Positions 40,689 to 55,856 of a DNA stretch of 64,000 nt are shown in pieces. The number at the start of each line of letters is the position of its first letter. Position 1 is the stretch's first letter. The notes under the pieces were generated by a model that saw only the letters and a program-made list of their open reading frames with translations, ran no database searches and was not told where the DNA came from. Source of the stretch: an uncultured Bryobacterales bacterium (GTDB taxonomy: Bacteria; Acidobacteriota; Terriglobia; Bryobacterales; UBA6623); contig CATOTH010000005.1 in the NCBI GenBank assembly GCA_951813065.1, positions 558,001 through 622,000 of the forward strand, written 5' to 3'. Made by a program: the position numbers and the translations under genes.

Positions 40689-40782
40689 AGCAAGTTCCTG
40701 CCCCGCCCGCGGCAAACCCTCTGTACAATCGAAACAGACTATATGTAGCGGCGATCCACGAAGTGCAGCGGAGCGTGTTGCC

Positions 40783-40803: not shown

Positions 40804-41948
40804 TGCAGTTCCCCCCCGAGCTAGAGCGTCACCCCACCCGCAAGCGGGCCCAGCTCGCCTACCTTCAGGGGATCGAGGCGCTCTCGCGCCACCCCGAGGC
40901 GCGTGACGCCCACATCCACTGGCTGCGCCGCCAGACGCCCGTCGCGATGAACGACGACGGGTGGATCCTGCTCGTCTATCCGACCGAGACCGAAGCCCGC
41001 CTGGCGGAGGCCAACGAGGCGATGGTGCGCCTCGGCCACAGGCTGCGCGCCATCGAGGCCGCCCAGGGGGTGGTCGCGCGGGCTGTCGGGGGAGCGAATG
41101 GCTCCGGCGGCAGCGCGAACGGCGGCAAGGCGAGGAAGAGGCCAGCGCGCCAAGAGAAACGCCAGCCCTGGGAGCGACGGCCGGTCTACATGCCGGCCTT
41201 CCTGGTCCAGACCACGCTGCCGCATCGCGAGCCGAAGGACTCGCGGTTCTTGCGTGTCAACGGAGAGGGGAGGACGACGGTCTTCACCGACCGGGCTGTC
41301 GGCCTGCCGTTCGGCGTCTACCCCAGGCTGATCGTGATCGAGCTGGCCACTGCCGCAGTCCGCACGAAGAGCCGCACGTATGTCATCGGCCGCTCGATCA
41401 ACGAACTGTTGACCCGGATGGGGATCTCGAACAGCGGCGGCTCCCGCAGTCAGGCCACGCTCGCCCGCGACCAGCTCGACCGCCTCTGCTGGGCGAAGTT
41501 CGTCACAACTCATCTCTCGAAGTACGAGCCCACCGCGCTGGGCGTGGCGGATCGGTGGCTGGAGAAGACAAGCGACGGTCTGAAGGTCACGCTCACGGAG
41601 CGCTTCTTCGAACAGGCCACGAAGTCGGCCGTGCCCCTCGACCCCTTCATCCTCCGCAAGCTCAGGCGGTCCCCGCTCTCGATCGACATTTACGGGTGGA
41701 TCACCTACCGGATGTCGACGCTGGAGCGGCCGACAACGATCTCGTGGCCGAGCATCGAGAGGCAGTTCGGGTCGGAGTACAAGCACCCGCGGCAATTTCG
41801 ATGGATGTTCCGAGCTTGCCTCAAGCGGATTGAGGAAGCATGGCCCGGGGAACTTGGCGTAGAGGTCCAGGACAGGCGAGTCGTGTTGACTCCATCCCCG
41901 CCCTCCGTGGCATCACGCACGGAGCGCCACAACGCGAAGCACCACTGA
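40803..41948 (+). CDS. repA: plasmid replication initiator RepA (RepA_C type)
   Basis: 381 residues from TTG at 40803 with SD AAGGAGG 5 nt upstream. The first 130 residues are helical and end in a Gly/Ser/Lys-rich linker. Residues about 150-330 match the plasmid-encoded RepA family: AFLVQTTLPHREPK, RVNGEGRTTVFTDRAVGLPFGVYPRL (key GLPFGVYPR), TKSRTYVIGRSINELL and RMGISNSGG. The C-terminal winged-helix region holds IYGWITYRMSTLE. It should bind the iterons that begin at its stop codon and open the origin. No parA/parB genes are seen beside it. Confidence 0.85.
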   Translation: MQFPPELERHPTRKRAQLAYLQGIEALSRHPEARDAHIHWLRRQTPVAMNDDGWILLVYPTETEARLAEANEAMVRLGHRLRAIEAAQGVVARAVGGANGSGGSANGGKARKRPARQEKRQPWERRPVYMPAFLVQTTLPHREPKDSRFLRVNGEGRTTVFTDRAVGLPFGVYPRLIVIELATAAVRTKSRTYVIGRSINELLTRMGISNSGGSRSQATLARDQLDRLCWAKFVTTHLSKYEPTALGVADRWLEKTSDGLKVTLTERFFEQATKSAVPLDPFILRKLRRSPLSIDIYGWITYRMSTLERPTTISWPSIERQFGSEYKHPRQFRWMFRACLKRIEEAWPGELGVEVQDRRVVLTPSPPSVASRTERHNAKHH

Positions 41949-41958
41949 CGCTGACGAT

Positions 41959-42103
41959 TTGCGCTGGTTTACTGACGCTTTCTTGCGGAACCAGATTTGC
42001 GCTGGTTTACTGACGCTCCTGCGCTGGTTTACTGACGCGGCCTGCGCTGGTTTACTGACGCTCCTGCGCTGGTTTACTGACGCTCCTGCGCTGGTTTACT
42101 GAC
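41959..42103 (+). repeat. six iterons of a RepA-dependent origin
   Basis: The core GCGCTGGTTTACTGAC occurs without mismatch at 41961, 41999, 42021, 42044, 42066 and 42088. The last five are spaced 22-23 nt, i.e. two helical turns, and the first 38 nt away. A partial copy (ACTGACGCTGACG) overlaps the repA stop codon. Direct 22-nt iterons immediately downstream of repA are the standard layout of an iteron-regulated plasmid origin. Confidence 0.93.
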
Positions 42104-42452
42104 ACCGCTCATATATATCTCCTGTAGCTCCTATAGCACCTGTAGATTCCACCTGTAGGATGCGCGCGCGAATGCAGCCCTCGGGGTTCGCTCCTCTGGC
42201 TGGTTCCTCAGCGCCCTGGGGCATCGCGCCAAGCTGCTCCGGACCACAAGTCGCGGCGCCCTGCGCCGGGAGAGATCCCTCTCGGAAACGACCACCCGTG
42301 GCCGAACATCGTCGCCCTCGCCGGTCGCGGCGGAGGGACGGACGAGATCCTCCAGAGCCCGATGGGCCTGTTGCGGCGGGACGGCACGATCTCCCTGTAG
42401 CACCCCGGCTGTCCTTGCAGTGCCACGGTTCCGGCGCGACCATCGCCGTAGT
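42104..42452 (+). other. origin-proximal noncoding region (AT-rich block and CCTGTAG repeats)
   Basis: 349 nt. ATATATAT (42111-42118) in otherwise GC-rich DNA could be the unwinding element. CCTGTAG recurs at 42121, 42139 and 42152, with CCTATAG at 42130. After about 42170 no repeat or convincing gene is seen; an alternative in-frame ATG for the pilin gene lies at 42420. Confidence 0.6.
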
Positions 42453-42749
42453 ATGCCGAGACCTCGAATCGATCTTCGCGGGGCGCTCGTCCTGCGGCTC
42501 CCGCTGTTGCTGGCCGTCACCGCGGCATCCGCGTTCGCGGCGGCCAGCCCCTGGGAGGGCGCCATCGACAACCTCCAGGCCGCGTTCACCGGTCCCATCG
42601 GCCGCGGGCTCAGCCTGGTCGCGATCGTCGTCACCGGGCTGATGTTCGCGTTCGGCGAGCCCGGGGGCAAGAAGGCCCTGGCCGGAGTCCTGTTCGGCCT
42701 GTCGATGGCCATCGGGGCGACGGGCTGGCTGACCTGGCTGACGAGCTGA
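42453..42749 (+). CDS. trbC: conjugal transfer pilin TrbC/VirB2-like
   Basis: 98 residues from the ATG at 42453. A long signal region (LRLPLLLAVTAASAFAAA) and two hydrophobic segments (GLSLVAIVVTGLMFAFG; LAGVLFGLSMAIGATGWL) separated by GEPGGKKA are the VirB2/TrbC pilin pattern. It would form the transfer pilus after processing. Its stop overlaps the next start (TGATG), opening a block of coupled transfer genes. Confidence 0.78.
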   Translation: MPRPRIDLRGALVLRLPLLLAVTAASAFAAASPWEGAIDNLQAAFTGPIGRGLSLVAIVVTGLMFAFGEPGGKKALAGVLFGLSMAIGATGWLTWLTS

Positions 42750-43042
42750 TGCAGGAACCTCCGCGCAAGTGGGTCGCCTCGCAGGCCCTCAATCGGCCGC
42801 TCACGATCGCGGGTTGCGAGCGCACCTGGTTCATCCTCAACGGCATCCTGGCCTACGCCCTGTACACGGCGACCTACAGCCTCACGTTCGGCGCGGCGCT
42901 GGGGCTCGCGGGTTACGCCGTCGGCGTCGCCGCCTGCCGCGAGGATCCGGCGATGCTGCGGATTATCAAGGCCGCCCAGCGGTACAGGCCGCGGTACGAC
43001 CCCGGCAAGCCGGACGCAGGGCCTGGGGTACGCCTGGTCTGA
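42749..43042 (+). CDS. trbD: type IV secretion protein TrbD/VirB3-like
   Basis: 97 residues. A short polar N-terminus (KWVASQALNRPLTIAGCERT) and one or two membrane helices (FILNGILAYALYTATYSLTFGAALGLAGYAVGV, quoted here only by its ends FILNGIL and GYAVGV) match VirB3, which partners the VirB4 ATPase at the inner membrane. It is coupled at both ends by TGATG overlaps. Confidence 0.8.
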   Translation: MQEPPRKWVASQALNRPLTIAGCERTWFILNGILAYALYTATYSLTFGAALGLAGYAVGVAACREDPAMLRIIKAAQRYRPRYDPGKPDAGPGVRLV

Positions 43043-45474
43043 TGCCCGAATCCGCGGCAGCCGTGTTCCGGAGGGCCCGGGACGAGGCGGGATCGCTTGC
43101 CTCGGAGATCCCCTACTGGGGCTGGCTGCAGGACGGGCGGACCTGCCTGACCCGGCGCGGGGAGCTGGTCACCGTCGGGGGGCTGGTTCCGCGGCCCACC
43201 GCCGGGCTGTCGCACGAGCAGCTTTCAACCGTCGTCGAGCGCTGGGTGCGGCTGCTGGGTCAGCTGGACAGCCGCACCCGGCTGTCGCTGTTCGTGCTGC
43301 GCAGGCCCCTGCCCCCGGCCGAGGCCGGCGAGGCGGGGATCGCCGGCGAGTCGGCACGGGCGCGCGCCGCGCACCTCAGCCGGAGGCTCTCACGGCTCGA
43401 GATCAGTGTCGCGTGGGCGCGGGATCCCCGGCTCAGGGCGGCCCCTTCCGCCAACGGCACGCCGGCCTGGCTGGAGCGGGGCCGGGCCGTGCTGCAGCCG
43501 GATCGCCGGCCAGCCTGGATCCGCAGCCAGGTCGAGGAGGCCTGCGAGCAGTTGCGGCAGGACGTCGACGCGCACTGCCGGCTGATCGAGGACCTGACTC
43601 CGATCCGGATCCTCGAGCCCGATGAGGCCACCCGGATCCTGAACGAGCTGGTCAACCGGCCCGGCACGGAACCGCCGACCGCGAGGGGCTCGGGGCTGCA
43701 CTGGCGCCTGGCCCAGTCCGAGTTGGAGGCGGAGCGCCGGCAGTTGCGCATCGATGGCGAGGACGCGCTCGTGTACTCGCTGGTCGAGCCCCCGTCCGAG
43801 GCGGCTGCCGACCAGCTCCGCGAGCTGCTGCAGCTGCCGGCGACGATGACGGTGTCGTGGGAGTTCCGGCGCCTGCCCACGGACAAGGCGCGCAAGCGCA
43901 TCGACAGCGCCAGGAAGTTTTTCTTCGCCAAGCGCTTCAGCATGATGGCCCACGCCCGGGACGCGGACGGAACCTCGACCGCCATGCTCGACGAGGCCGC
44001 CGACACCGAGGCGGCGCGCCTGGGAACTGCGCAGGCCGAGCTCGAGGCGGACGGGATGCCATACGGCGACCTGGCCCTGGGGCTGACTTTGCACGGCCCG
44101 CTGGAGGAGATCGAGCGGCACGACGCCGCGGTGCGGCGCATCTTCGCCTCCTGCGACGCCAAGATCATCCGGGAGAGCTACGGCCAGCTGGCGGCGTACT
44201 TCGCGCGGCTGCCCGGGGCGGCGCGTGCCAACCAGCCGCGGCCCCTGCTGGTCTCCGCCGGCGTCGCCGCGGCCCTGGCCCCGCTGTGCGGGCCGACCCT
44301 CGGGTCCCCTCGCAGCGCCCACCTGGACGAGGAGTGCCTGTGCGTCCTGGAGACTCGCGAGGGGACACCCTACCACTACGACCTGTTCGCCGGCGGCGGG
44401 GGCGACATCGGGCACACCCTGATCCTCGGCCAGACCGGGAGCGGCAAGAGCTTCCTGCTGAACTTCCTGCTGGTGTCGGCGGTCAAGTACGGTCCGCGCG
44501 TGTTCATCCTCGACCTCGGCGGGTCCTACCGCCCGCTGACACAGCTGATGGGCGGGGACTACCTGCAGCTCTCGCCGGACCCGGAGGCCCCGACCCGCGT
44601 GCGGCCGTTCTCGCTGCCGCCGGGGGAGCGGACCTTCCAGTTCCTGGCCGGATGGGTCAGGCGGCTGCTGGAGCTCGGCGGCTACGAGACCACGGGCGGC
44701 GACACCAACGAGATCCGCAAGCTCGTCGAGGACCTGTACCGGTTCGACGTCGCCGAGCGGCGGCTGGGATCGCTGGCGGAATCGCTGCTGCAGCGCATGA
44801 AGCCGGCGATGTCGCGGTGGGTCGGCAACGGGACGTGGGGCGCGGTCTTCGACAACCCGCCCGCCGAGGGCGCCGAGGATGCCTGGGGGGAGTGGCAGGT
44901 CGTCGACCTGGCCAGCGCCGCCGAGCACGACGACCTGGTCGAGGCCGCGCTGGGCTACTACCTCGAGAAGATGCGGCACGAGATCGACGATCCCGCCGAC
45001 CTGGCCCGGGTGAAGATCGCCGTCGTGGACGAGGCCTGGAAGTTCCTCAAGGACCCGTCCGTGAGCGCCTATCTCGCGGAGGCCGCCAAGACCTGGCGCA
45101 AGAAGAACGCGGCCCTGCTGCTGGCGACCCAGTCGGGCGGGGACCTGGCCAGGGCCGAGACCGCCAGGGGCCTTCTGGAGGCGACGCCCACGCGGCTGTT
45201 CCTGGCCAACCCGGAGTTCCCGCTGGAACTGGCGGAGGCCTTCCAGCTGTCGCCCGCGGAGGTCGACCAGATCCGCGGGCTGGTGCCCAAGCACGAGATC
45301 TACCTGCGCCGGACGGGCGAGGCCGAGGTGCTGCGGCTGGAGGTCGACCAGCGCTCCTACTGGCTGTATACGAGCTCGGCAAGGGACGCCGCCAAGCGGG
45401 CGCGCGCGATCGCCGAGCACGGGCTGTCCGGGGCGCTCGACCGGCTCGCCAGGGGGGCGTACCGAACGCAATGA
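43042..45474 (+). CDS. trbE: type IV secretion ATPase TrbE/VirB4
   Basis: 810 residues from ATG 43042, which overlaps the trbD stop; the frame is open further upstream but overlaps trbD. Walker A LILGQTGSGKSFLLNF at about residue 463, Walker B VKIAVVDEAWKFL near 657 and the LLLATQSGGDL motif near 695 are as in VirB4. It powers pilus assembly and substrate passage. The N-terminal 400 residues are the poorly conserved membrane-associated part. Confidence 0.93.
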   Translation: MPESAAAVFRRARDEAGSLASEIPYWGWLQDGRTCLTRRGELVTVGGLVPRPTAGLSHEQLSTVVERWVRLLGQLDSRTRLSLFVLRRPLPPAEAGEAGIAGESARARAAHLSRRLSRLEISVAWARDPRLRAAPSANGTPAWLERGRAVLQPDRRPAWIRSQVEEACEQLRQDVDAHCRLIEDLTPIRILEPDEATRILNELVNRPGTEPPTARGSGLHWRLAQSELEAERRQLRIDGEDALVYSLVEPPSEAAADQLRELLQLPATMTVSWEFRRLPTDKARKRIDSARKFFFAKRFSMMAHARDADGTSTAMLDEAADTEAARLGTAQAELEADGMPYGDLALGLTLHGPLEEIERHDAAVRRIFASCDAKIIRESYGQLAAYFARLPGAARANQPRPLLVSAGVAAALAPLCGPTLGSPRSAHLDEECLCVLETREGTPYHYDLFAGGGGDIGHTLILGQTGSGKSFLLNFLLVSAVKYGPRVFILDLGGSYRPLTQLMGGDYLQLSPDPEAPTRVRPFSLPPGERTFQFLAGWVRRLLELGGYETTGGDTNEIRKLVEDLYRFDVAERRLGSLAESLLQRMKPAMSRWVGNGTWGAVFDNPPAEGAEDAWGEWQVVDLASAAEHDDLVEAALGYYLEKMRHEIDDPADLARVKIAVVDEAWKFLKDPSVSAYLAEAAKTWRKKNAALLLATQSGGDLARAETARGLLEATPTRLFLANPEFPLELAEAFQLSPAEVDQIRGLVPKHEIYLRRTGEAEVLRLEVDQRSYWLYTSSARDAAKRARAIAEHGLSGALDRLARGAYRTQ

Positions 45475-46301
45475 GGCATCCGAAGAGACATACCGTCTTC
45501 GCCGCAACGTGGACGCTGGCCGCGGTGGGAGCCGCTGCCGGCGGCGAGGCGCGCAGGGTCCGGCTGGACTCGCTCGACGAGATCGTAGAGATCCGGACCG
45601 CGGTGCGGCACACCACGGTGATCGCGCTGCCGGCGCACGAGTCGATCGTCGACTACGTGGCCGGGGACACCGAGTTCTGGCAGATCCAGGGGGGCGGCAA
45701 CCTCGCCTACCTCAAGCCCCAGGGGAAGGGCGAGCGCACCAACGTGGCGCTGATCACGCGGAACGGCAACATCTACTCATTCCTGTGCCGGGAGGGCGGC
45801 GGCGATCCGGACCTGGTGGTGCACATCGAGGTCGGCGAGCCTGCCGAGCCCGGGGACGGCACGATCGGCACGCCCGTCCACCAGCCGGTGTTCGTGCCGG
45901 CGAGCGAGGTCGCCGACTACCAGGCGGCCGCCCGGGCGGCCGCCGAGGAGGCCTCCAGGGCAAGGGCCGCGGCGGCCGAGACGGTCGAACAGCAGGTGGA
46001 GTCCTTCCGGTCCGCCTATCCGGGGGCCATGCAGTTCGAGTACCGGCTAGAGGCGAAGGCGCGGCGGGATCCCTTCTCCGTGGTGGCGATGTGGAACGAC
46101 GGCCGGCACACCTACCTGCGCAGCACGGCGCCGGAGTCGCCGGCGATCTACGAGTCGCGGGACGGCAAGCCGAGCCTGGTCGAGTACGAGCTCACCGAGG
46201 ACGGCCTGTACGTCGCCCAGCGGGTCCTCCGGAACGGCTGGCTGCAGATCGGCAAGCAGCGGGCGGAGTGGGTCTACCTGCCGGCCAGGGGGCAGCCGTG
46301 A
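45471..46301 (+). CDS. trbG: outer-membrane complex protein TrbG/VirB9
   Basis: 276 residues; the start overlaps the trbE stop (ATGA). Signal peptide at the N-terminus (FAATWTLAAVGAAAGGEA). The VirB9/CagX pattern includes IVEIRTAVRHTTVIALP, NLAYLKPQGKGERTNVALIT (key YLKP and TNVALIT) and, at the C-terminus, DGRHTYLR and KPSLVEYELTEDGLYVAQRVLRNGW (key YELTEDGLY). It lines the outer-membrane core with VirB10. Confidence 0.88.
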   Translation: MRHPKRHTVFAATWTLAAVGAAAGGEARRVRLDSLDEIVEIRTAVRHTTVIALPAHESIVDYVAGDTEFWQIQGGGNLAYLKPQGKGERTNVALITRNGNIYSFLCREGGGDPDLVVHIEVGEPAEPGDGTIGTPVHQPVFVPASEVADYQAAARAAAEEASRARAAAAETVEQQVESFRSAYPGAMQFEYRLEAKARRDPFSVVAMWNDGRHTYLRSTAPESPAIYESRDGKPSLVEYELTEDGLYVAQRVLRNGWLQIGKQRAEWVYLPARGQP

Positions 46302-47581
46302 GCAGCTGGATCCGCAGGCCGCGCAATCCTGTCGGCACGCTGCCGAAGGGCCTGATCAACAAGGTCGGCATCATCGGCGGCGCCGTGATCATGGCCCTGG
46401 TGATCCTCACTTCGCCATCGAGCGACGAGGAAGGCGAGGCCGCGGCGGCCGGGGAATCCGTTGCCGACGGGGAGACCGTGGAGCAGGCCGCGGGCGGGGA
46501 GGGGCTCGTGCGGTCGACCGCGGACGCGATCGAGAGACTCAGGACACAGGCCGCGCGGCTGCAGGCGGCGCGCGACCAGGAAGAGGCGGACCGGCTGCGG
46601 GAGGCCACGGCCGGCGGGACGATCCCGCTCCGGCCCCGCGCCGTTGCGCAGGGGCCGCTGCCGGGCCTCGCTCCGGGCAGCGCGGCCGAGCCGGAGACCC
46701 CCGAGCAGCAGCTCCGGGAGGAGTTGCGCCTGGCCGAGATCCGGCGGGCGCACGAGGCCCTGCGGTCGCCGGTCGTGGCCTTCTCCTCGCGGCCCACCGC
46801 CGGGCAGGACGGGGCCGTTTCCGACGGGGGGCCGGAACGACAGCCCGTTACGGATCCGGCTCCCCGGGACACGGACTCCCCGCCGGCCGCCTCCCCGGAA
46901 GAGCTGGCCGAACTGCGCGTGCTGGCCGGCTCGCAGGGCGTGCCCGAGCCGGCCGATGCCGCACCGGCCCCGGCCACGCAGCCGAAGGATCCGCCGGGCT
47001 GGGAACGCATCTTCGAAGGCCAGCTCCTCGAGGCCGTGCTGGCCACCCAGCTGCGCGGCGACTTCGCCGGTCCGGTGGTCGCCATCGTCTCCGCCCCCCT
47101 GTGGTCCCGCGACCGCCAGCGGATCCTGATCCCGCGCGGCACGCGCGCGCTCGGCCGGGCCGCGGCCGTGGGAGACTGGCAACAGGCCCGGCTCGCGGTC
47201 TCCTTCCACCGCCTGCTGTTCCCCGACGGGCGCTACATCCGCCTCGAGTTCGGGGCCCTGGACCAGGCCGGCGCGAGCGGCCTGCAGGACCGCGTCAACC
47301 GCCACTACCTCTCGACCATCGGCGCCGCCGGGGCCGTGGGCGTGATCTCCGGGCTGACCCTGCGGGGATCCCAGCCGTATGCCGGCGGCACCGACGGGGC
47401 GCGGGCCGGGGCCGGCATCGGCATGGGCCGCGCCGCCGAGACGATCCTCGAGCGGTACCTGAACCGGCTGCCGACAGTCACCATCCGCGCCGGACAGCGG
47501 CTGCGGATCATCTTCACGTCCGACGCGCTCGTGCCGCGGCCGGCGTTCCGATTGCATTCCGATTCCAGGAGGACACCATGA
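46298..47581 (+). CDS. trbI: core-complex protein TrbI/VirB10
   Basis: 427 residues from GTG 46298, overlapping the trbG stop by 4 nt. A single membrane helix (KVGIIGGAVIMALVILTS, residues about 21-38), then a long Pro/Glu/Ala-rich periplasmic linker, then the VirB10 barrel from about residue 230: EGQLLEAVLATQL, ILIPRGTRALGRAA, FHRLLFPDGRYI and QRLRIIFTSD at the end. It spans both membranes and relays ATPase energy to the outer-membrane channel. Confidence 0.92.
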   Translation: MSSWIRRPRNPVGTLPKGLINKVGIIGGAVIMALVILTSPSSDEEGEAAAAGESVADGETVEQAAGGEGLVRSTADAIERLRTQAARLQAARDQEEADRLREATAGGTIPLRPRAVAQGPLPGLAPGSAAEPETPEQQLREELRLAEIRRAHEALRSPVVAFSSRPTAGQDGAVSDGGPERQPVTDPAPRDTDSPPAASPEELAELRVLAGSQGVPEPADAAPAPATQPKDPPGWERIFEGQLLEAVLATQLRGDFAGPVVAIVSAPLWSRDRQRILIPRGTRALGRAAAVGDWQQARLAVSFHRLLFPDGRYIRLEFGALDQAGASGLQDRVNRHYLSTIGAAGAVGVISGLTLRGSQPYAGGTDGARAGAGIGMGRAAETILERYLNRLPTVTIRAGQRLRIIFTSDALVPRPAFRLHSDSRRTP

Positions 47582-48477
47582 CTCGATCCAGACCCAGACG
47601 GCGCCTGCTGGCGGCAGCGCTGGCAGCCCTGCTGCTGGCGGCCACCGCCACGGCGGGATTCCCCACCTTCGACGTGGCGGCCTTCGGCCAGCGCGTCCAG
47701 AAGGCGATCAACGACAATGCCCAGCTGGTGGGCATCACCTCGCTCGTGACCAACACCACGACCATGATCAGCACCCTGGACTCGCAGCTGGACCAGGCGT
47801 TCCAGTTCGCGGAGGGCCGCATCGGCGCCCTCTCGAACTGGGCCCAGATGTTTTCCGGGGCCGACGTGCTGGGGGCGCCGGCCCAGGTCCAGGGATGGAT
47901 CAACCGCGCCGGCCAGGTGCGGGACCGCGCGGCGCAGCTGGCCGCGGGCTCGCTGGGCGCGCTGCCGACCGAGGCGGATGTCCGCGGCGCCTGGGCGGCG
48001 GCTCCGGTGACAACCCCGATCGGCACGCCCGTCGTGCCTCCGCCCGCGGAGACGCGGGCCGACCTCGGGGCCAGGCTGGCACGGGAGCGGGCCGCGGTCT
48101 TCGCCCGCCTCGACGCGATCACCAGCGCGAGAGCCGCGGCGGCCGCGCGCCACGCACAGCTGGCCGGCGACATCCGCGGACGGCTGGAGGGCATCGCCGC
48201 CGACCCGGTTGTGTCGGCCACCGCGCTGCAGCAGAAGCAGGTCAGCGTGGCCGCGGCACACGGCGACCTGCTGGCCGCGCACCTGCAGGTGGAGGCCCAG
48301 CAGGAGGAACTGGCGGTCGCGGAGGCGAGCGTCAAGCGCGAGGCCGCCGCCGCGTACCAGGCGGCGAAACTGAACGGAATCCGGGCGGCCTTCGACGGCA
48401 CTGCCGCGATCATGGCGAGCTTCGACGACGCGGGGGCCGACGACGCGTTCAACCGGCCGCGGCTGCCGGTCTACTAG
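47578..48477 (+). CDS. trbJ: TrbJ/VirB5-like periplasmic transfer protein
   Basis: 299 residues; ATG overlaps the trbI stop (ATGA). Signal peptide RRRLLAAALAALLLAATATAG, then mostly long helices: the N-terminal VFDVAAF-like FPTFDVAAFGQRVQ segment and a C-terminal coiled coil rich in Ala, Glu and Gln. This is the TrbJ pattern, a minor pilus component that may also mediate entry exclusion. Assignment rests on order and overall character more than on motifs. Confidence 0.75.
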   Translation: MTRSRPRRRLLAAALAALLLAATATAGFPTFDVAAFGQRVQKAINDNAQLVGITSLVTNTTTMISTLDSQLDQAFQFAEGRIGALSNWAQMFSGADVLGAPAQVQGWINRAGQVRDRAAQLAAGSLGALPTEADVRGAWAAAPVTTPIGTPVVPPPAETRADLGARLARERAAVFARLDAITSARAAAAARHAQLAGDIRGRLEGIAADPVVSATALQQKQVSVAAAHGDLLAAHLQVEAQQEELAVAEASVKREAAAAYQAAKLNGIRAAFDGTAAIMASFDDAGADDAFNRPRLPVY

Positions 48478-48514: not shown

Positions 48515-49510
48515 ATGCAGGTCGACCTGACACAGGCCCAGCAGATCCACTCGAACGATCCCGGGGCCATCAAGGCCATGCTGGACAGCCTGACCGAGGC
48601 CATGCTGGCCGACGTCGCGGGTCCCCTGCTGACCGCCGGCGAGAACATCTGGGAGGGCCTCGCGGCGGTCGTGATCGTCTGGACCGGCGTGCGGATCGCC
48701 CTGTCCGGAGGCGGATTCTCGGGCTGGGACATCGCCCGGCTGGTGACCGCGCTGATGGTGCCGCGGACGATCCTCTTTTACTACAGCACGCCGATGCCGC
48801 TCGGCGGGCAGACCTTGCCGCAGGCGATCGTGGGCATGGGGTCGTGGGTCGCCGACATGGTCACGCGCGACAGCTACTCGGCGACCTGGAGATGGCTGGG
48901 GGACTTCTGCACGCGGGCGCTCGCCGAAGCCTGGTCCGCGAGCACCGACTGGGGTGTGTTCTGGATCCTCAGCATCGGGGACATGGCCGGCAACCTGATC
49001 GCCGGCACCGTGCTGGCGGTGCTGGTGGTGTTCATGGCGATCGTGTCGCTGCTGCTGGTGGTGATCGGCTACGCCCAGGTCATCTGGGCCCAGTTCGCGA
49101 TCGCGATCGCGGTGGCGCTGGGGCCGATCTTCGTCCCGTTCCTGCTCTTCGAGCCGCTGGCGTTCCTGTTCTGGGGATGGCTGCGGACGCTGCTCACGTA
49201 CTCGCTGTACTCGGCGATCGCCGCCTGCGTCGTGCGGGTGTTCCTGGGCGCGGTGCGGGCGGCCAGCGACGGCATCTGGGAGTCGCTCACTCCCGACGTG
49301 GAGGCTCTCGGCGCGGGCCTGATGTGGATCGTCTCCTACCTCGTGCTCGCCCTGGCGGGGATCCTGGCGGCGTTCAAGATCCCCGAGCTGGCGTCCGCGC
49401 TCGTCTCCGGAAGCGTCAGCGGGGGCGGCATGCTGGGGGCGCTGGCTGCGGTGGCGACGGCCGGCAAGGCGGCCGTGATGGTCAAGGGCGGCGGGGCGCT
49501 GCGCAAGTGA
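48515..49510 (+). CDS. trbL: TrbL/VirB6 inner-membrane channel protein
   Basis: 331 residues with at least five hydrophobic helices, e.g. AAVVIVWTGVRIAL, GTVLAVLVVFMAIVSLLLVV and GLMWIVSYLVLALAGILAAF. The central loop WAQFAIAIAVALGPIFVPFLLFE carries the conserved ALGPIF/FEPLAFLFWGW block of TrbL/VirB6 proteins. It begins 37 nt after trbJ; a GGAGCAGC sequence precedes the ATG. It forms the inner-membrane passage for the DNA substrate. Confidence 0.88.
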   Translation: MQVDLTQAQQIHSNDPGAIKAMLDSLTEAMLADVAGPLLTAGENIWEGLAAVVIVWTGVRIALSGGGFSGWDIARLVTALMVPRTILFYYSTPMPLGGQTLPQAIVGMGSWVADMVTRDSYSATWRWLGDFCTRALAEAWSASTDWGVFWILSIGDMAGNLIAGTVLAVLVVFMAIVSLLLVVIGYAQVIWAQFAIAIAVALGPIFVPFLLFEPLAFLFWGWLRTLLTYSLYSAIAACVVRVFLGAVRAASDGIWESLTPDVEALGAGLMWIVSYLVLALAGILAAFKIPELASALVSGSVSGGGMLGALAAVATAGKAAVMVKGGGALRK

Positions 49511-49543: not shown

Positions 49544-50569
49544 ATGGATCGCGGTTTCGACCCACGGGAGGGGGCGCAGGAAGCGCCGAGCCGTCGTGCC
49601 TCGACAGTGGTCCACGGTCGGAGGGTGCAGCTGCCGGAGAACCTTGACCGGTCCCCCAGTGCCTGGCGGCGGCTGGAGGACAAGGCGAGGCTGGAAGCGG
49701 AGGTTGCGGAGCGGGAGGAGCGGGAGAAAACCAGGCGGCCCGTCCGGAGGCGCCGGGTGGACGACCGGACCCGGACCGGCCACCGCAGGGACGTCGACCC
49801 GCGGCGCGAGCGCGTCAGCTTCGCCGCGCGCCAGGCGCGGACGCTGGAGGACCTCGGGATCTACCGCTGCGCGGCCGTGGCGGACATCGCCGACGAGCGC
49901 TTCGGGGGCCATCCCTACGCCGCCCGGCGGGGCATTGACCAGCTCAAGCGGCGCGGGCTGGTCGCGGAGTTCTCCGCACGGGGCCCCAAGGGAGGGGCCT
50001 TCAAGGTCGTGCATCTCACCCACGCCGGACGGCAAGAGGCAACGACCGGGCGGCGCGACACGCTGGATCCAGACCAGCGCTACTGGGGCGGCCGCGCCAA
50101 GGCGCGGGAGGCCTCCCACGAGGCCGGGGTCTACCGGGCCGGGCGGAAGGAATGCCGCCGGCTTGAGGGGGAAGGCGCAACCGTCACGCGGATCCGCTGC
50201 GACTCGGAACTCAAGTCGGCCGTCGCGAAAGCCGCGGAGAAGGCCCGGACCCGGTCCGGACGTGAGGCGGCCGAGCAGGTCAAGCGGGCCGCGGCGGCGG
50301 CGCTCGGAGTGCCGGTCGTCGACGGCAAGGTGACCTACCCGGACCTGCAGATCGAGTACCTCGACGCGGAGGACCGCGGTGGGCGGGTCAACGTCGAGGT
50401 CGCGACCGGGCACTACCGGGGAAAGGATATCTCCGCGAAGCTGGCGGCGGGATTCCGGATGCACGCCGCGGACGGCCGGGCGAAGCGCAAGATCGACCTG
50501 GCCCGACTGGAGGGCCACGGCGGAGGCGGCGGAGGCGGCCGCGGCGAAGGGGGGATGCTGGAGCTGTGA
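49544..50569 (+). CDS. replication-relaxation family-like protein (candidate mobilisation protein)
   Basis: 341 residues. A basic, Arg-rich N-terminus of 90 residues precedes a winged helix (TLEDLGIYRCAAVADIADERF; GIDQLKRRGLV; VVHLTHAGRQEA). A second domain has VYRAGRKECRRLEGEG and PDLQIEYLDAEDRGGRVNVEV (key PDLQIEY...NVEV), which resembles the Replic_Relax fold with a PD-(D/E)xK-like core. It ends in a Gly-rich tail. Position after trbL and before the coupling protein suggests DNA processing for transfer; this is inference. Start ATG at 49544. Confidence 0.6.
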   Translation: MDRGFDPREGAQEAPSRRASTVVHGRRVQLPENLDRSPSAWRRLEDKARLEAEVAEREEREKTRRPVRRRRVDDRTRTGHRRDVDPRRERVSFAARQARTLEDLGIYRCAAVADIADERFGGHPYAARRGIDQLKRRGLVAEFSARGPKGGAFKVVHLTHAGRQEATTGRRDTLDPDQRYWGGRAKAREASHEAGVYRAGRKECRRLEGEGATVTRIRCDSELKSAVAKAAEKARTRSGREAAEQVKRAAAAALGVPVVDGKVTYPDLQIEYLDAEDRGGRVNVEVATGHYRGKDISAKLAAGFRMHAADGRAKRKIDLARLEGHGGGGGGGRGEGGMLEL

Positions 50570-51528
50570 TCGCACACCTGCGGGGCCGCGAGAAGGGCAT
50601 CCAGGAACTCGGTTTCAAGCCCGAGGATGCCGAGTGGATCGCCCTGGTCGCGCTGCACAGCGGCGTGTTCCTGCGGTCCCAGTACGGGCGGTTCCACGGT
50701 GAGAACGGAAAGGCTGTCCGCAAGCGCTCCGAGCGCCTCGCGGGCGACCTGCTCCGGCGGGACCTCGCCGTGGAATCCGATGTGCCCGGTTTGGGCCGGG
50801 TCTGCCGACTGAAGTCCAGGACGGTCTATCGTGCTCTCGGCGCCGAGCACATCCGCCATCGCAGGGATGCAGCCCAGGCCACGGTGCTCCGGCGGCTGCT
50901 GTCCCTGGACTTTGTCCTCGGTGATCTCGAGTCGCCCTGGCTGCCCACCGAGCCCGAAAAAGTGGCGGCATTCGAGGCCGTGGGGGTTCCGCGGCGGGTG
51001 CTCCCGAAACGGATCTATGGGTCGAAAAAAAAGGGGCGGACAGAGCGGCCATTCGGCTGGAAAATGCCGGTCGCGTTCGGTGGTGCGCTAGCGCGGTTTG
51101 TCTTCGTTGACATCGGCGGCGAGACGCATGACGAACTGCTCTCCTGGGGTGCGGAGCACGCCCACCTGTGGTCCGTGCTTGGAGCACGTGGCATACCCGT
51201 CGAGGCCGCGGCGGTTTGTATGTCTGATCATCGATTGCGGGAATCCAAGCGCATTCTGACCAGGTGGACAGAGGGCGGGATCACAGTACCCGGGGTGGAC
51301 ATGAATGATGCCCAACTGGACGAGTTGAAGCGGGCCGAAGGGGCGTTGGCTTCGCTCGACGAGCCGGCGATGTTGCAGTGGGGTGGGTTGAACGGCACGA
51401 TCAAGCGAGTCGCGGAGTTGCAGAGACGGAGGGATGCCGCAAGTCAGGAGGGCGCGCAGCGGATTCGTCTGGACGCGGTTCAGACGCACTCACTGCGATT
51501 GGGGTGGGCGGGGGCTGCCGAGTGCTAG
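50566..51528 (+). CDS. unrecognised protein with N-terminal winged-helix-like region
   Basis: 320 residues from GTG 50566, overlapping the previous stop by 4 nt (GTGA). N-terminal 120 residues look like a winged helix (DAEWIALVALHSGVFLRSQY; RSERLAGDLLRRDLAVE; VYRALGAEHIRHRR). Then RRLLSLDFVLGDLESPWLPTEPEKVAAFEAVGV (quoted by its ends LLSLDFVL and TEPEKVAAF), a KKKGRTERPFGWKMPVAF stretch and FVFVDIGGETHDELLSW. The last 100 residues are charged helices. The architecture parallels the preceding protein; the pair may act together at the origin of transfer. No family name is certain. Confidence 0.6.
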   Translation: MIAHLRGREKGIQELGFKPEDAEWIALVALHSGVFLRSQYGRFHGENGKAVRKRSERLAGDLLRRDLAVESDVPGLGRVCRLKSRTVYRALGAEHIRHRRDAAQATVLRRLLSLDFVLGDLESPWLPTEPEKVAAFEAVGVPRRVLPKRIYGSKKKGRTERPFGWKMPVAFGGALARFVFVDIGGETHDELLSWGAEHAHLWSVLGARGIPVEAAAVCMSDHRLRESKRILTRWTEGGITVPGVDMNDAQLDELKRAEGALASLDEPAMLQWGGLNGTIKRVAELQRRRDAASQEGAQRIRLDAVQTHSLRLGWAGAAEC

Positions 51529-51817
51529 CCGTGGTAGTCCAGAGTGTCGCGGGCCCATCAAGGGGTGGCGACAGATATCGCAGAGACCTTGCGACATCTG
51601 TGATTTCTGTAACGGCTTTTGAACCGCGGACTTCCATGAGGGCCAACGCCGTCTCGTGGCAGTCGACCGGGTTGGATCGTGGTAGGAGCGACCCCCCCTT
51701 TCGGGCCCTGTGGACTACCACGGGATCGTCGCTCTGCGACATGATCCCGCGTCCGGGGGTCGCTCCTACGAATTCATCCCTGCGGGAAGGCGGCCGCTGT
51801 GCCCCGGGGGCGTCGCG
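51529..51817. other. hairpin-rich intergenic block before traG (candidate oriT)
   Basis: 289 nt without a gene. Hairpin 1: ACAGAT(51571-51576) with ATCTGT(51596-51601) around TCGCA/TGCGA. Hairpin 2: GTAGGAGCGACCCCC (51682-51696) with its exact inverse at 51755-51769, enclosing a third stem CGGGATC (51721-51727)/GATCCCG (51743-51749) with inner GTCGC/GCGAC. The GTAGGAGCGACC arms look like the REP sequences of pseudomonads. Location between possible mobilisation genes and the coupling protein suits an origin of transfer, but no nic consensus is recognised. Confidence 0.55.
51682..51769. repeat. REP-like nested palindrome
   Basis: Perfect 15-bp outer arms with a 58-nt interior that itself folds into a 12-bp interrupted stem. 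The whole block could form a cruciform or a strong RNA structure in the traG leader. Confidence 0.75.
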
Positions 51818-53848
51818 ATGACGCCGCGGCTGCTGGCGTGGGTGGCCTTCGGCACGGTGGCCGCGCTGGCGCGGTGGCGCTTCTGGCCGTGGCCAGCAGC
51901 CGGCGAGGCGCCGGCGCTGGACCTGGTCGCGGTCTACGATCCGGCGCTGTACTGGGCGTTCTGGCTGTGGGCGTATGCCTGGCCGGTGGCGGCCGTCGGT
52001 GTCGTCGGCTCCCTTGCCCTGTCGGCCTGGGATGTGTGGGGCCCGCGGGGCGCGCCAGCCGTCGTCCGCGGGAAGCTGCCATCGTGGCCGCTGAGCGGGA
52101 ACGAGCCCGAGCCCGCAGTCGTGGTCGGGGAGCAGCACCACCCGGTGAGTCCGGTCGAGGTCGAGCGGCCGACGTGGCTGACCGTGCCGGCTGCCGGGCT
52201 GTTCACCGGGACGGCCATATTCGGGGCCACCGGCAGCGGCAAGACAGCCGCCTGCATGCGGCCGTTCGTGGCTCAGCTTTTCAGCTGGCAGGCGGCCGAT
52301 CCGGAGAAGCGGGCGGGCGGATTGGTGCTGGAGGTCAAGGGCGACTTCTGCCGGCAGGTCCGCGAGGTCCTCAAGGCCTGCGACCGGGAGGATGACTATG
52401 TCGAACTCGGCGTCGGCGGGCGGTGGCAATGGAACCCTCTCGACGCCCCCGAGGTCGATTCGTATTCGCTGGCCTACCAGCTCAGCTCGCTGCTGAACCA
52501 GCTGTTCGGCCGGGGCAAGGAGCCCTTCTGGCAGCAGGCGTCGACCAACCTGCTGCGCAACCTGGTCGAGCTGCATCGCATCCACGGCAGCGGCTGGGTG
52601 ACGCTGCGGGACCTGTACCGGTGCGCGATCGACCGCGGGCTGCTGCAGGCCCGCCTGGTGCAGGCGCGCGCCGAGGTGCGCGAGGAGCCGGCCATGCGGG
52701 TCACGGTCCGGGCGGAGGACCTCACTGTGAATGCCGTGGCCTTGGACCGCTTCGGGCCCTGGGCCCGTGAGGGCGACCGGCTGTCCGCGCCCATGACGCG
52801 CGAACTGCTCGACGCCCTCGAGGAGGCCGGCATCGACGGAACCCGCGAGCGGCCCTCCAGGCCGCCCGTCGCCCCGGATGCGGAGGGCCGACTGGAGGCG
52901 GCGGAGCGCTGGCTCGAGCATGACTGGCGGCAGCTCGAGACCAAGCTGAGGACGTCGATCGTCGAGGGCGTCTCGTCGTTCCTGGGGATCTTCGACCAGC
53001 CCGACGTCGCACGCGTGTTCTGCCCGGGGCCGCCGGCTGTCGCCGCAGGGCCGCAGGGCGGCACGACGTTCAGTGGGGAGTTGCCCTCGCTGCTGCGGCC
53101 CCTGCGGCGGCTGCGCGAACTGATCGAGAACGGCACCGTGCTGTGCCTCAACATGCCGACCGGGACGAGCCCCGCGCTGGCCCGGGCGGTGGGCGTGATG
53201 CTCAAGGGGGCCTGGCTGCAGGCGGCGCTGCGGCGGCCAGCCGACATGGCCGCCGAGCCGGAGCGCTACTTCCGGCCGGCGGTCTTCGTCTGCGACGAGT
53301 ACCAGTCGTTCGCGACGGTCGGGGAGGACGAGCCGGCCGGGGACGAGAAGGCCTTCCCCCTGACGCGGCAGTCGCGGGTGATCCCGATCGTGGCCACGCA
53401 GTCGGTCTCGTCGCTGAAGAGCGCGACGCGGGGGGATGCCTGGAAGACGCTGCTGCAGTCGTTCCGGACGCGGGTGTTCCTGACCTCGGCCGACGCCGAC
53501 ACCTCCAGGGCGGCGTCGGAGATGTGCGGGACGGTGGAGCGGCTCAAGGCCAGCTACAACTTCAGCGAGAACTCCTCGCAGGCGGGCGTCTCGTTGCTGA
53601 GCGGCAAGGCCGGGGGAGCGCGGGCGAGCGTGGGGGCCGGGCGGTCCTACCAGGCCCGCCGGGAGCCCCGGTTCCACCCGAACGACTTCGAGGCGCTGGG
53701 CACGTGCCAGGCGATCGTGATCCCGTTCGACGGCTACAACGCGATGCCGGCGCGGCGGGTGTATCTCAAGCCCTGGTTCCTGCCCCGGGACAAGCCGTAC
53801 TGGCAGGCGGTCCGGGAGGGCGAACTCGGCGGGACGGGAGGACTCTGA
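51818..53848 (+). CDS. traG: conjugative coupling protein TraG/VirD4
   Basis: 676 residues from the ATG at 51818; the longer frame to 51710 would translate the palindrome. N-terminal membrane helices (LLAWVAFGTVAALARW; WAYAWPVAAVGVVGSLAL). Walker A AIFGATGSGKTAACMRP near residue 130, Walker B AVFVCDEYQSFATVGE near 487, and IVATQSVSSLKSA near 525, as in VirD4-type ATPases. It docks the relaxosome to the secretion channel. Its stop overlaps a 19-codon ORF that in turn overlaps trbB. Confidence 0.9.
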   Translation: MTPRLLAWVAFGTVAALARWRFWPWPAAGEAPALDLVAVYDPALYWAFWLWAYAWPVAAVGVVGSLALSAWDVWGPRGAPAVVRGKLPSWPLSGNEPEPAVVVGEQHHPVSPVEVERPTWLTVPAAGLFTGTAIFGATGSGKTAACMRPFVAQLFSWQAADPEKRAGGLVLEVKGDFCRQVREVLKACDREDDYVELGVGGRWQWNPLDAPEVDSYSLAYQLSSLLNQLFGRGKEPFWQQASTNLLRNLVELHRIHGSGWVTLRDLYRCAIDRGLLQARLVQARAEVREEPAMRVTVRAEDLTVNAVALDRFGPWAREGDRLSAPMTRELLDALEEAGIDGTRERPSRPPVAPDAEGRLEAAERWLEHDWRQLETKLRTSIVEGVSSFLGIFDQPDVARVFCPGPPAVAAGPQGGTTFSGELPSLLRPLRRLRELIENGTVLCLNMPTGTSPALARAVGVMLKGAWLQAALRRPADMAAEPERYFRPAVFVCDEYQSFATVGEDEPAGDEKAFPLTRQSRVIPIVATQSVSSLKSATRGDAWKTLLQSFRTRVFLTSADADTSRAASEMCGTVERLKASYNFSENSSQAGVSLLSGKAGGARASVGAGRSYQARREPRFHPNDFEALGTCQAIVIPFDGYNAMPARRVYLKPWFLPRDKPYWQAVREGELGGTGGL

Positions 53849-53907
53849 TGCAGATGGTTGCAGTTCGATTCGACGACCACGGGACTGCCCACGGCGGGAG
53901 GCCCTGA
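53848..53907 (+). CDS. 19-residue coupling ORF between traG and trbB
   Basis: ATG at 53848 shares its A with the traG stop (TGATG), and the ORF's own TGA (53905-53907) shares its A with the trbB ATG (TGATG). The product, MQMVAVRFDDHGTAHGGRP, has no recognised domain. The double overlap suggests it serves to carry ribosomes from traG to trbB. Confidence 0.45.
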   Translation: MQMVAVRFDDHGTAHGGRP

Positions 53908-54863
53908 TGCCGGCGCTGGACCGGGTTTTGTCCCTGCTTCCCGAAGTCGTGCGCAAGGCCTTCGAGGACGAGACCGTCAGCGAGCTCATGATCAACGGGC
54001 CCGGCAGGTACTTCGTCGAGCGCGGCGGCGGGCAGCCCGTCGAGGTCGAGGCCCCGGATCTGACTGCGGAAGACGTCTACGCCGCCGCGATCCATATCGC
54101 GCGGCCGCTCGGCCTGGAAGCCGGCGAGAAGGTCCCGATCGTCGACGCCCGGCTGGACGACGGCTCGCGCGTCGCCATCGCGCTGCCGCCCGTCGTCCAG
54201 TACGCAGCCATCACCATCCGCCGGTTCGGGCGGCGGCAGTTCAGCGCCGAGGACCTGATCGAGCAGGGGTCGCTCCCGCGGTCCGTCTACGAGGAGGCGG
54301 TCGAGCACCTCCGGGGGCGGCGCAACGTCCTGATCGCCGGTGGGACCGGAAGCGGCAAGACGACGCTGCTGCAGGCCCTCGCCGGCGTGATCCCCGACGA
54401 CGAGCGGATCCTGGTGATCGAGGACACCACCGAGATCCAGCTGGAGGCGAAGAACCTGCTGCAGATGGAGGCTCGCGACCTGGCCGGGTCCGGCCTGTCC
54501 ATCCGGGACCTGGTGAAGGCCTCGCTGCGGCACCGGCCGGACCGGCTGATTCTGGGGGAGGTCCGCGGCCCTGAGGCCGCCGACCTCATCCAGGCGCTAA
54601 ACACCGGCCACGGGGGCTCGCTGTCCACGATCCATTCCAACGACGCCGAGAGCGCGCTGGTGCGGCTGGCGTCCTGCGCCCTGCAGGGCGGTGAGGGGAT
54701 CTCCTGGCCGGTGCTGTGCATGCAGGTCGCCCAGGCGATCGACTTCGTGATCCACGTCGAGCGCCGCGACGGGCGGCGGGCGGTGTCGTCCGCTGTGCGG
54801 GTCCTCCGCGCGCAGGGGGACGGCTGGGAAACGCGGCGCTTCTGGCCGCTGGCGGGGAGATAA
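53907..54863 (+). CDS. trbB: secretion ATPase TrbB/VirB11
   Basis: 318 residues. N-terminal domain with FEDETVSELMINGPGRYF; RecA-like domain with LIAGGTGSGKTTLLQALA (Walker A, residue about 150), the Asp box EDTTEIQLEAKN, RLILGEVRGPEAADLIQA (Walker B) and NTGHGGSLSTIHSN (His box). A hexameric cytoplasmic traffic ATPase. In RP4-type systems trbB starts the trb cluster; here it is placed after traG. A GATAAT overlaps its stop codon. Confidence 0.93.
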   Translation: MPALDRVLSLLPEVVRKAFEDETVSELMINGPGRYFVERGGGQPVEVEAPDLTAEDVYAAAIHIARPLGLEAGEKVPIVDARLDDGSRVAIALPPVVQYAAITIRRFGRRQFSAEDLIEQGSLPRSVYEEAVEHLRGRRNVLIAGGTGSGKTTLLQALAGVIPDDERILVIEDTTEIQLEAKNLLQMEARDLAGSGLSIRDLVKASLRHRPDRLILGEVRGPEAADLIQALNTGHGGSLSTIHSNDAESALVRLASCALQGGEGISWPVLCMQVAQAIDFVIHVERRDGRRAVSSAVRVLRAQGDGWETRRFWPLAGR

Positions 54864-54872
54864 TGAACGGCC

Positions 54873-55856
54873 ATGCCGGATGACTTGCGCGCGCTTGAGC
54901 AATTTGCGGACGTCGTCGCGGAGAAGATCGTCGACCACAAGCGAGCGGCGGAGCTGCGCAGGATCGTCGCCGACCACCAGGTCTGGCTCCAGACGGACGG
55001 GGAGGACGGCCGTAAGGCGGACCTGCGGGGCCTCAACCTCGAGCGGCTGAACCTGTCGAATCTCAACCTTCGGGGTGCGGACTTGCGCGGGGCGCGGATG
55101 GCTGGGGCGCGGGTCGACGGCGCTGGCCTGGAGCAGGCCGACCTGCGCGGGGCGAACCTGACTGCGGTGCGAGGGCGTGAGACGCGGCTCAAGGGGGCCA
55201 ACCTAGACGGATCGAGGCTGGTCGACGCGCGGCTCCGGGGGGCCGATCTGGAGAAGGCGACTCTCCGCGAGGCCGTGGCCCACGGAGCGCGCTTCACCGA
55301 CGCGCGCATGGGGCAGGCCGATCTTTCGAACGCGGACCTGGGTGCGGCCGACTTCAGCGGGGCGGATGCGCGCGAGGCGGCGTTCGACGGGGCGCGGATG
55401 TACGGTGTCCGGGCCGTCGGGGCCGACTTCTCCGAGGCGCTGTTCCAGGAGAGCGGTGGACAGAGGGTCGACCTGCGCAAGGCGGACCTGCGCAGTGTTG
55501 TGCTTGAGGAGGCCTCGATGCGCGGTGCCAACCTCGGCGAGGCGGATCTAACAAACGCCCGGCTGTCGCGCGCAAGCGCGGCGGGAACCAATCTGCACCA
55601 CGCCAACCTGGAGAACGCGGACATGCGCGAGATCCGGGCGCGGGGGGCGGTCCTGGCGGGCGCCGAGGCGCCGGAGCGGCGTGGGCCCGATCTGACCGGC
55701 GGGGACCTGCGCGAGTCCAACTTGGCCGGCAGTCGGCTGGGCGGCGCTCGGATGGAAGGGGTGAAGCTGGAGGGGGCCAGCCGGGAGGGGGCGAAACTGC
55801 CGCCATCCGTGAAACTTCCGGAGAGAGACCGGACGCTACCGGGCCTGGAGCGCTAG
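54873..55856 (+). CDS. pentapeptide-repeat protein
   Basis: 327 residues. After a 50-residue helical N-terminus come about 45 imperfect A(D/N)Lxx pentapeptides (ADLRG, LNLER, ANLTA, ADLSN, ADFSG and so on), which fold as a square beta-helix. Such proteins can mimic DNA (Qnr/McbG protect gyrase), but many have no known role; no loops typical of Qnr are evident. GATAAT (54859-54864) ends 8 nt before the ATG. Its stop overlaps the convergent gene's stop by 4 nt. Confidence 0.85.
   Translation: MPDDLRALEQFADVVAEKIVDHKRAAELRRIVADHQVWLQTDGEDGRKADLRGLNLERLNLSNLNLRGADLRGARMAGARVDGAGLEQADLRGANLTAVRGRETRLKGANLDGSRLVDARLRGADLEKATLREAVAHGARFTDARMGQADLSNADLGAADFSGADAREAAFDGARMYGVRAVGADFSEALFQESGGQRVDLRKADLRSVVLEEASMRGANLGEADLTNARLSRASAAGTNLHHANLENADMREIRARGAVLAGAEAPERRGPDLTGGDLRESNLAGSRLGGARMEGVKLEGASREGAKLPPSVKLPERDRTLPGLER

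Follow-up and report, generated by a model that had tools for sequence, protein, structure and literature searches.

How does an element that carries the genes of a conjugation apparatus process its DNA when no recognisable relaxase can be seen? Genome surveys have turned up many conjugation systems of this kind, which have puzzled the field ever since (available text of PMC3158045). The question is raised here by a plasmid-like element of an uncultured Bryobacterales bacterium (Acidobacteriota), which we analysed in a stretch of 64,000 nt, hereafter the window (assembly GCA_951813065.1, contig CATOTH010000005.1, positions 558,001 to 622,000; G000:C5:558001-622000 in our numbering, where G denotes genomes and L loci of relatives). 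The assembly, G000, amounts to 5.59 Mb in 11 contigs at 95.6% completeness, and the contig ends 4,330 bases past the window. A preliminary description had noted a transfer system without a visible relaxase and, between trbL and traG, two overlapping genes in the expected place. Both observations are confirmed: trb and traG genes are present, and the two genes, encoding P0001 (341 aa, 49544-50569) and P0002 (320 aa, 50566-51528), lie on the forward strand with a 4-bp overlap. On balance we lean towards the reading, drawn from sequence comparison, that positions 51529-51777 are an origin of transfer (oriT), that P0001 is a MOBC-like nickase and that P0002 is its specificity or coupling partner.

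The five informative Pfam relaxase models, PF03432, PF08751, PF03389, PF07514 and PF13814, gave no match across the whole G000 assembly; as a positive control, PF13814 matched in 9 of 119 and 22 of 396 genomes of larger phylum searches. PF01076 (MOBV) was silent in all 11 genomes searched, with control genomes equally silent, and PF02486 (Rep_trans, MOBT) was absent from the Pfam-scanned proteins of the element, a genome-wide PF02486 search not having been made. A standard relaxase beyond position 64,000, the possibility raised in the preliminary description, was not seen in the remaining 4,330 bases of the contig, which hold an HU gene, ssb, a second ardC and unassigned open reading frames (ORFs). 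The five models were likewise silent in genome G139, and the first four gave nothing above cut-off in G116, G054 and G107. In the element of G061, which like G139 is a near-complete genome of the window's class, no other relaxase candidate was seen from trbC through trbB.

Neither P0001 nor P0002 matches Pfam, NCBIfam or a named PHROG. Structure prediction gave both a winged helix, as had been described, followed by a restriction-endonuclease-like core. The P0001 model, built with 15 sequences (mean predicted local distance difference test, pLDDT, 83.1; predicted template modelling score 0.68), shows the winged helix at about residues 93-168, followed by strands and helices arranged as in a PD-(D/E)xK core. 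That of P0002 (pLDDT 88.7) has the winged helix at residues 9-82 and then a PD-(D/E)xK-like order of elements. Among P0001 relatives (A4: 26 family rows with identity down to about 25%, L111 and L112 omitted), E222, P266, D267, E285, H192, Y197, Y291, G303 and F304 are kept in 26 of 26 and K299 in 25. A smaller set, A2, holds 15 rows including P0001, taken from 16 first matches with the truncated L016 and the duplicate L013 omitted. As P0001 is conserved from about residue 79 onwards, its true start may lie further downstream; a simple gene caller placed it at about 49625.

In P0002, the first two catalytic acids are missing from the predicted nuclease-like domain. At the positions aligned to those of Replic_Relax, D is found in none of 45 rows at 165 and E in none at 180 (A1: 45 rows including P0002, from 55 ORF matches after omission of truncated and duplicate rows), and in a wider P0002 set D165 is present in just 8 of 23 (A5, a chosen subset). 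The third acid is kept, position 182 being D or E in all 45 rows of A1, as are D115, E129, E131 and K132, and the domain carries a conserved LPTEPEK motif. Conservation of PD-(D/E)xK-type residues, a check suggested in the preliminary description, held for P0001 and failed for P0002. Foldseek returned weak rows for P0002 to R.BspD6I, Can2 and cap-snatching nucleases, several of which we take to be PD-(D/E)xK enzymes; the match to the R.BspD6I small subunit (E 0.11) may be chance, and an alignment to SdaI (Z 7.0, root-mean-square deviation 4.4, 128 aligned residues, model range 91-314) was listed among winged-helix rows. A search of PDB sequences with A4 and A5 by hmmsearch gave winged-helix rows and noise only. 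R.BspD6I is a PD-(D/E)xK pair that acts as a nickase, and offers an analogy for P0001 and P0002.

The relation of the two proteins to MOBC (Replic_Relax) relaxases appears at the level of profiles. Neither matches PF13814; a weak match (E 0.022) was given by a single P0001 relative out of 15, and among the 25 families listed for the 45 P0002 relatives PF13814 does not occur. The comparison set comprised 15 Replic_Relax/TraX sequences, one of them the TraX-type protein encoded by pTEF1, which PLSDB types as a MOBC plasmid; with its trimmed domains it replaced a comparison with only six Replic_Relax sequences, which had aligned the winged helix alone. CloDF13 was set aside as a source of MobC, its gene table holding no usable MobC and its 'Mobilization protein A' being a weak coupling-type ATPase match. 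Against the 15 sequences, the full-length P0001 profile reached a score of 57.8 (probability 92.8%; maximum of 58 column shuffles 14.9) and that of P0002 43.8 (maximum of 58 shuffles 16.4). The C-terminal domain of P0002 alone scored 27.6-28.4 (maximum of 60 shuffles 15.7). In the models and full-length profiles, the winged helix and the PD-(D/E)xK-like domain are colinear with Replic_Relax in both proteins, and D267 and E285 of P0001 align in register with the PD and E of Replic_Relax, that is, with D152 and E170 of the TraX-type protein. D152, E170 and E172 of TraX were reportedly found to be catalytic by Francia et al. in 2013. The equivalents of the first two are present in 26 of 26 P0001 relatives and that of the third in none, whereas P0002 keeps the third only (45 of 45, A1). 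The preliminary description had likened one of the proteins to the replication-relaxation family; the likeness extends to both, at the profile-profile level only, weakly so for the C-terminal domains, and with no PF13814 match for either.

As in the MOBC relaxases pAD1 TraX and CloDF13 MobC, a winged helix precedes a PD-(D/E)xK-like domain with aligned PD and E, and the gene lies near a VirD4-type coupling protein. Unlike MOBC, the window proteins stay under PF13814 detection, the third acid of P0001 is replaced while E222 and K299 are conserved, two proteins stand in place of one, and the type IV secretion system (T4SS) is of trb type. The GAGCGACC hairpin, described below, was not found at 23 acidobacterial Replic_Relax match loci, in the first 50 kb of pTEF1 or in CloDF13. 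For TraX, mutagenesis supports a restriction-enzyme-like site next to an N-terminal winged helix-turn-helix (available text of PMC12857230).

The strongest evidence for reading P0001 and P0002 as a relaxase pair is a conserved cis site downstream of P0002, which the preliminary description had missed. Directly 3' of P0002 stands a hairpin, GAGCGACC...GGTCGCTC, which together with short repeats makes up the candidate oriT between P0002 and traG (51529-51777, forward strand). Its outer part is a perfect 15-nt inverted repeat (left arm GTAGGAGCGACCCCC, 51682-51696; right arm GGGGGTCGCTCCTAC, 51755-51769; both forward), which recurs at the same place in L002 and has changed but still paired arms in L003. 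A core rule of [AT]GCGACC...GGTCGC[AT], applied to the 800 nt on the 3' side of each P0002 gene, holds for 48 of 55 such genes (the window and 54 loci), compared with 1 of 153 random stretches of the same loci. Four loci with full sequence fail the rule, namely L032, L049, L019 (altered arm) and L031 (shorter spacer), and three further genes have too little downstream sequence; a separate tally of 41 of 53 includes L049, probably by chance, and L008 in the wrong register. The P0002 genes from the phylum search are divergent, most sharing about 17-25% identity with that of the window (L107 and L109 36-40%), and for these too a GCGACC/GGTCGC hairpin lies within 650 nt in 11 of 13 cases (background 3 of 272). 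Among 29 of 38 distinct hairpins (A6), the outer stem shows both-side (compensatory) changes in 5 of 11 pairs and 1 broken cell of 319; the RNAalifold consensus consists of the outer stem only, the inner stems being too variable in position. As single-stranded DNA, the window hairpin has fold z values of -6.1 and -5.3 for its two strands.

The interior of the hairpin repeats words that stand upstream of it, and these words differ between elements. In the window, motif A was read from the sequence as an inverted copy (GCGACA on the reverse strand, 51545-51550), a direct copy 23 nt further on (51568-51573) and another 23 nt after that (51591-51596), with a fourth copy, also direct, at the inner hairpin within the outer repeat (51736-51741). 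Motif B (CGTGGTAGTCCA), likewise read from the sequence, lies at 51530-51541 on the forward strand with a related copy at 51655-51664, and recurs inverted within the hairpin (51711-51722, reverse strand); it seems to behave much like motif A. Other elements carry other words at the equivalent places: GTGTACC in L012, GCCGGACA in L024 and TGCGCAC in L009 and L040. In 17 diverse elements, none of 20,000 label permutations was as good as the observed sharing of 7-mers between hairpin interior and own upstream sequence. For 27 P0002-adjacent sites, none of 5000 permutations was as good for upstream 7-mer sharing, whereas on the opposite side 4065 of 5000 were. A further 48 hairpin sites, classed as 'other', form a mixed group: some turned out to be P0002-adjacent, being duplicates of sites from another locus or standing at a greater distance from the gene (L057, L204, L207, L220, L041, L046 and L051 are examples). 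The arrangement resembles that of pAD1 in that direct repeats stand apart from the presumed nic region; the pAD1 relaxase TraX binds five such repeats at a distance from nic (available text of PMC12857230).

Next to repA, the window holds further repeats: just 3' of that gene, at 41944-42108, are repeats of about 22 nt (TGCGCTGGTTTACTGACGCTCC) with a ACTGACGC core in six copies. Shorter repeats of 9 nt, of the CACCTGTAG type, come next (42112-42158). The 41944-42108 repeats are probably replication iterons; they were weighed as an oriT and set aside on that account.

A scan of species genomes with P0002 yielded 54 loci, all labelled metagenome-assembled and mostly from Gemmatimonadota and Acidobacteriota, with a few from Proteobacteria and one from Chloroflexota, assignments that binning may mislabel. 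Genes of these loci were called by codon usage, clusters of stop-to-stop ORFs being unusable owing to shadow ORFs. Of 149 genomes drawn from the window's phylum, 15 have a P0002 relative and 11 a P0001 relative, and P0002 is present in every one of these 11. A tblastn search of 72,556 plasmids with both proteins gave no matches. The adjacency of the two genes, pointed out earlier for the window, is less general among relatives: 11 of 14 P0001 matches in the phylum genomes lie directly beside a P0002 match, and 22 of the 54 loci show P0002 with neither a trb gene nor P0001 in view. Fifteen of those 22 have an integrase-cluster gene and six have traG next to P0002; the absences of P0001 and trb are weak evidence because flank lengths are unequal and several contigs short. 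P0001 stands beside P0002 in the window and in most distant elements, and elsewhere after trbB-ardC or before trbC. In 31 of the 54 loci, trb genes lie just upstream of P0002, and in 29 of these 31 traG follows it, L002 ending too soon and L007 lacking traG. All nine loci that show both trbC and trbB carry P0001 and P0002 (L012 and L013 are near-identical). L028 starts inside P0002 and has trbB, and G107 holds an island of P0001, P0002 and integrase with no trb gene in view, on a contig that begins at the pair.

The conserved site with repeats and hairpin that stands beside transfer genes recurs in islands without them, and P0002 genes with no traG after them retain the hairpin on their 3' side. 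Copies of the hairpin pattern exceed those of a backward-pattern control in G050 (27 against 4), G397 (21 against 1), G402 (17 against 2), G398 (14 against 0), G401 (14 against 1) and G024 (6 against 2). In genomes where no P0002 is known the counts are close to those of the control, and they do not rise above it in the P0002 carriers G108 (1 against 3), G061 (0 against 3), G125 (2 against 5), G399 (1 against 1), G400 (1 against 5) and G396 (3 against 5). With the queries used, an integrase was found in 10 of 20 neighbourhoods of extra site copies, and P0002 in two. This distribution is the pattern that would be expected of an oriT used by satellites. Integrase islands with a mobilisation protein and oriT, or with oriT alone, that depend on an integrative and conjugative element are described as iMOB and iOriT (available text of PMC11389934). 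The site-bearing islands share that pattern and may be mobilised likewise; unlike in those systems, the proteins and site here are not of a recognised type. A lone match of the pattern on a viral contig had no related gene near and was not used. Near P0002-only islands we observed restriction-type genes in L040 (4763-7285) and L036 (7768-9531), of BsuBI/PstI and DUF2357-PDDEXK_7 type, which suggests that satellite islands may carry defence genes.

The genes, their co-occurrence, the residue conservation, the structured site and its distribution, all computed here, can be brought together in one scheme, from which we infer nicking, binding, strand transfer, mobilisation and a division of labour. 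P0001, P0002 and the hairpin would form the relaxosome module of a trb-type element otherwise classed as MOBless. P0002, and perhaps P0001, would bind motifs A and B through their winged helices; P0001, as a PD-(D/E)xK nuclease distantly related to MOBC/Replic_Relax, would then nick one strand at or near the near-invariant GAGCGACC core. The role of P0002 would be to provide specificity and to pass the strand to TraG, whose gene follows P0002 in nearly all trb-type loci; P0001 and P0002 may also pair as a nickase heterodimer. Integrase islands bearing the same site, with or without a P0002 of their own, would be mobilised in trans. The unusual DNA-processing pair proposed in the preliminary description fares well as regards the missing canonical relaxase, the predicted nuclease-like cores and the co-occurrence in 11 of 11 genomes, and less well in that only P0001 keeps the catalytic pattern.

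Several observations weigh against this scheme. Position 287 of P0001, which corresponds to the second acid of the ExE/ExD pair in MOBC proteins, is acidic in none of 26 relatives. The C-terminal domain of P0001 alone scores weakly against Replic_Relax (19.5-20.7; maximum of 60 shuffles 13.6) and the N-terminal part alone reaches 50.3, so that the winged helix, a fold common to many unrelated proteins, makes up most of the full score. The Foldseek and VIA-align lists for P0001 contain winged helices and no nuclease; since winged helices fill these lists, the missing nuclease match is not contrary evidence. The window's own genome has a single site, with 4 copies of the pattern compared with 3 of the control. 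PF03432-type relaxases (about 500-760 aa) occur in several relative genomes, in separate islands and many near an integrase; one shares a 71-kb contig of G108 with trb genes, P0001, P0002 and a hairpin site, and in L026 and L040 one lies in the same locus as P0002. Finally, the islands with P0002 alone are also consistent with P0002 being the chief mobilisation protein, and the site could be a traG operator or a replication signal.

The main rival, which we consider unlikely, assigns the nicking to P0002 as relaxase, with P0001 as an accessory nuclease or a second DNA-binding factor. P0002 is the constant companion of the site, its C-terminal domain outscores that of P0001 against Replic_Relax, and D115, E129, E131, K132 and an acid at 182 are kept in all its 45 relatives of A1. 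Islands of integrase, P0002 and site with no P0001 in view resemble relaxase-bearing mobilisable islands, and find a parallel in streptococcal MobC islands, which likewise carry their own VirD4 coupling protein (available text of PMC5357655). What speaks for P0001 as the nickase instead is that the aligned catalytic D and E, absent from all 45 P0002 rows, are both present in 26 of 26 P0001 relatives, and that D165 appears in so few of the wider P0002 set. We give little credence to the proposal that the pair and hairpin serve replication, regulation or maintenance while a canonical relaxase acts in trans or lies past the contig end. RepA, iterons, primase and ssb are on the element, the contig stops about 4.3 kb beyond the window, and the PF03432-type relaxases of relatives sit in integrase islands, some with NikA-like partners; yet the relaxase models are silent in G000, G139, G116, G054 and G107 to the extent given above, the G061 element shows no other candidate, and in G396, a single-contig chromosome, the PF03432 matches lie at 2.67 and 4.52 Mb and the P0002 element spans the contig ends. 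Where PF03432-type genes do accompany the pair or P0002, they could belong to mobilisation functions of their own, or else several relaxases could make use of P0002. A 112-aa neighbour is present in many of the PF03432-type islands and is NikA-like in the one case scanned (L183); in L183, L173, L177, L180 and others we observed relaxases of 500-600 aa, often with the 112-aa neighbour and an integrase, and several such islands per genome.

That the hairpin is a structured RNA or a traG operator, a view compatible with P0001 and P0002 as a relaxase pair, seems rather improbable. It stands just upstream of traG in trb elements, and the covariation of its stem would fit RNA equally; against this, it is kept where traG does not follow and in integrase islands with no P0002 in view, its interior repeat motif recurs outside the stem, and Rfam gave no match to it (only MIR2084, E 0.77). 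A protein-exporting or degenerate T4SS with the pair as a passenger appears very improbable. Many of the MOBless T4SS, which are common, export proteins (available text of PMC3158045), whereas here the coupling protein, VirB4 and VirB11 are intact, an integrase is in view in many relatives, and there are primase, SSB and ArdC genes and a conserved, structured DNA site that integrase islands have too.

The setting of the proposed relaxosome module is a set of trb mating-pair genes. On the forward strand lie trbC/virB2, for the pilin (42420-42749, PF04956), trbD/virB3 (42749-43042, PF05101), the ATPase gene trbE/virB4 (43042-45474, Pfam/NCBIfam match, start set by the gene caller), a trbG-like gene (45471-46301), trbI/virB10 (46298-47581, PF03743), a trbJ-like gene (47578-48477) and a trbL-like gene (48515-49510). 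The trbG-, trbJ- and trbL-like genes were named by position and conservation in relatives, none of the three having a family match. Downstream of P0001, P0002 and the candidate oriT come traG, for the coupling protein (51818-53848), and the ATPase gene trbB/virB11 (53907-54863), both with Pfam/NCBIfam matches; the ATG of traG lies 3' of the hairpin although its ORF is open from 51710. On the reverse strand, trbF/virB8 (63445-64000, PF04335) extends past the window end. The element also carries repA, a primase, SSB and two ArdC proteins. The trb genes and TraG coupling protein are as in RP4/Tn4371-type systems, which carry a MOBP relaxase where this element has P0001 and P0002.

Some further features of the window can be added. 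A putative membrane protein of 112 aa without a Pfam match is encoded at 63102-63440; its relatives (cluster c12) adjoin trbF or P0001 in several elements, and in G061 a protein of similar look sits before P0001. A pentapeptide-repeat protein lies inside the transfer region (54873-55853), and the L003 element has one too. At 40176-40759 on the reverse strand, an asterisk-marked ARAGORN call of a transfer-messenger RNA overlaps the end of an mfd-like gene and is likely false.

Going beyond the window, we tentatively propose, at somewhat less than even confidence, an unrecognised relaxase class in which an active P0001 and a catalytically dead P0002 would form a strand-specific nickase. With it would come a new oriT family, defined by the GAGCGACC core and an element-specific repeat code, that mobilises satellites carrying the site alone or the site with P0002 and is spread through Acidobacteriota, Gemmatimonadota and others, mainly metagenome-assembled. 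In the literature searched, supplementary files aside, we found no description of the P0001/P0002 pair. Direct tests are possible with one 250-bp site, two small proteins and mobilisation by the site alone. If the proposal is true, a group of trb systems filed as MOBless would acquire a candidate relaxase and an oriT, together with a DNA signature that can be searched for, and this signature would flag islands otherwise unseen as mobile, some of them with restriction-type genes nearby.

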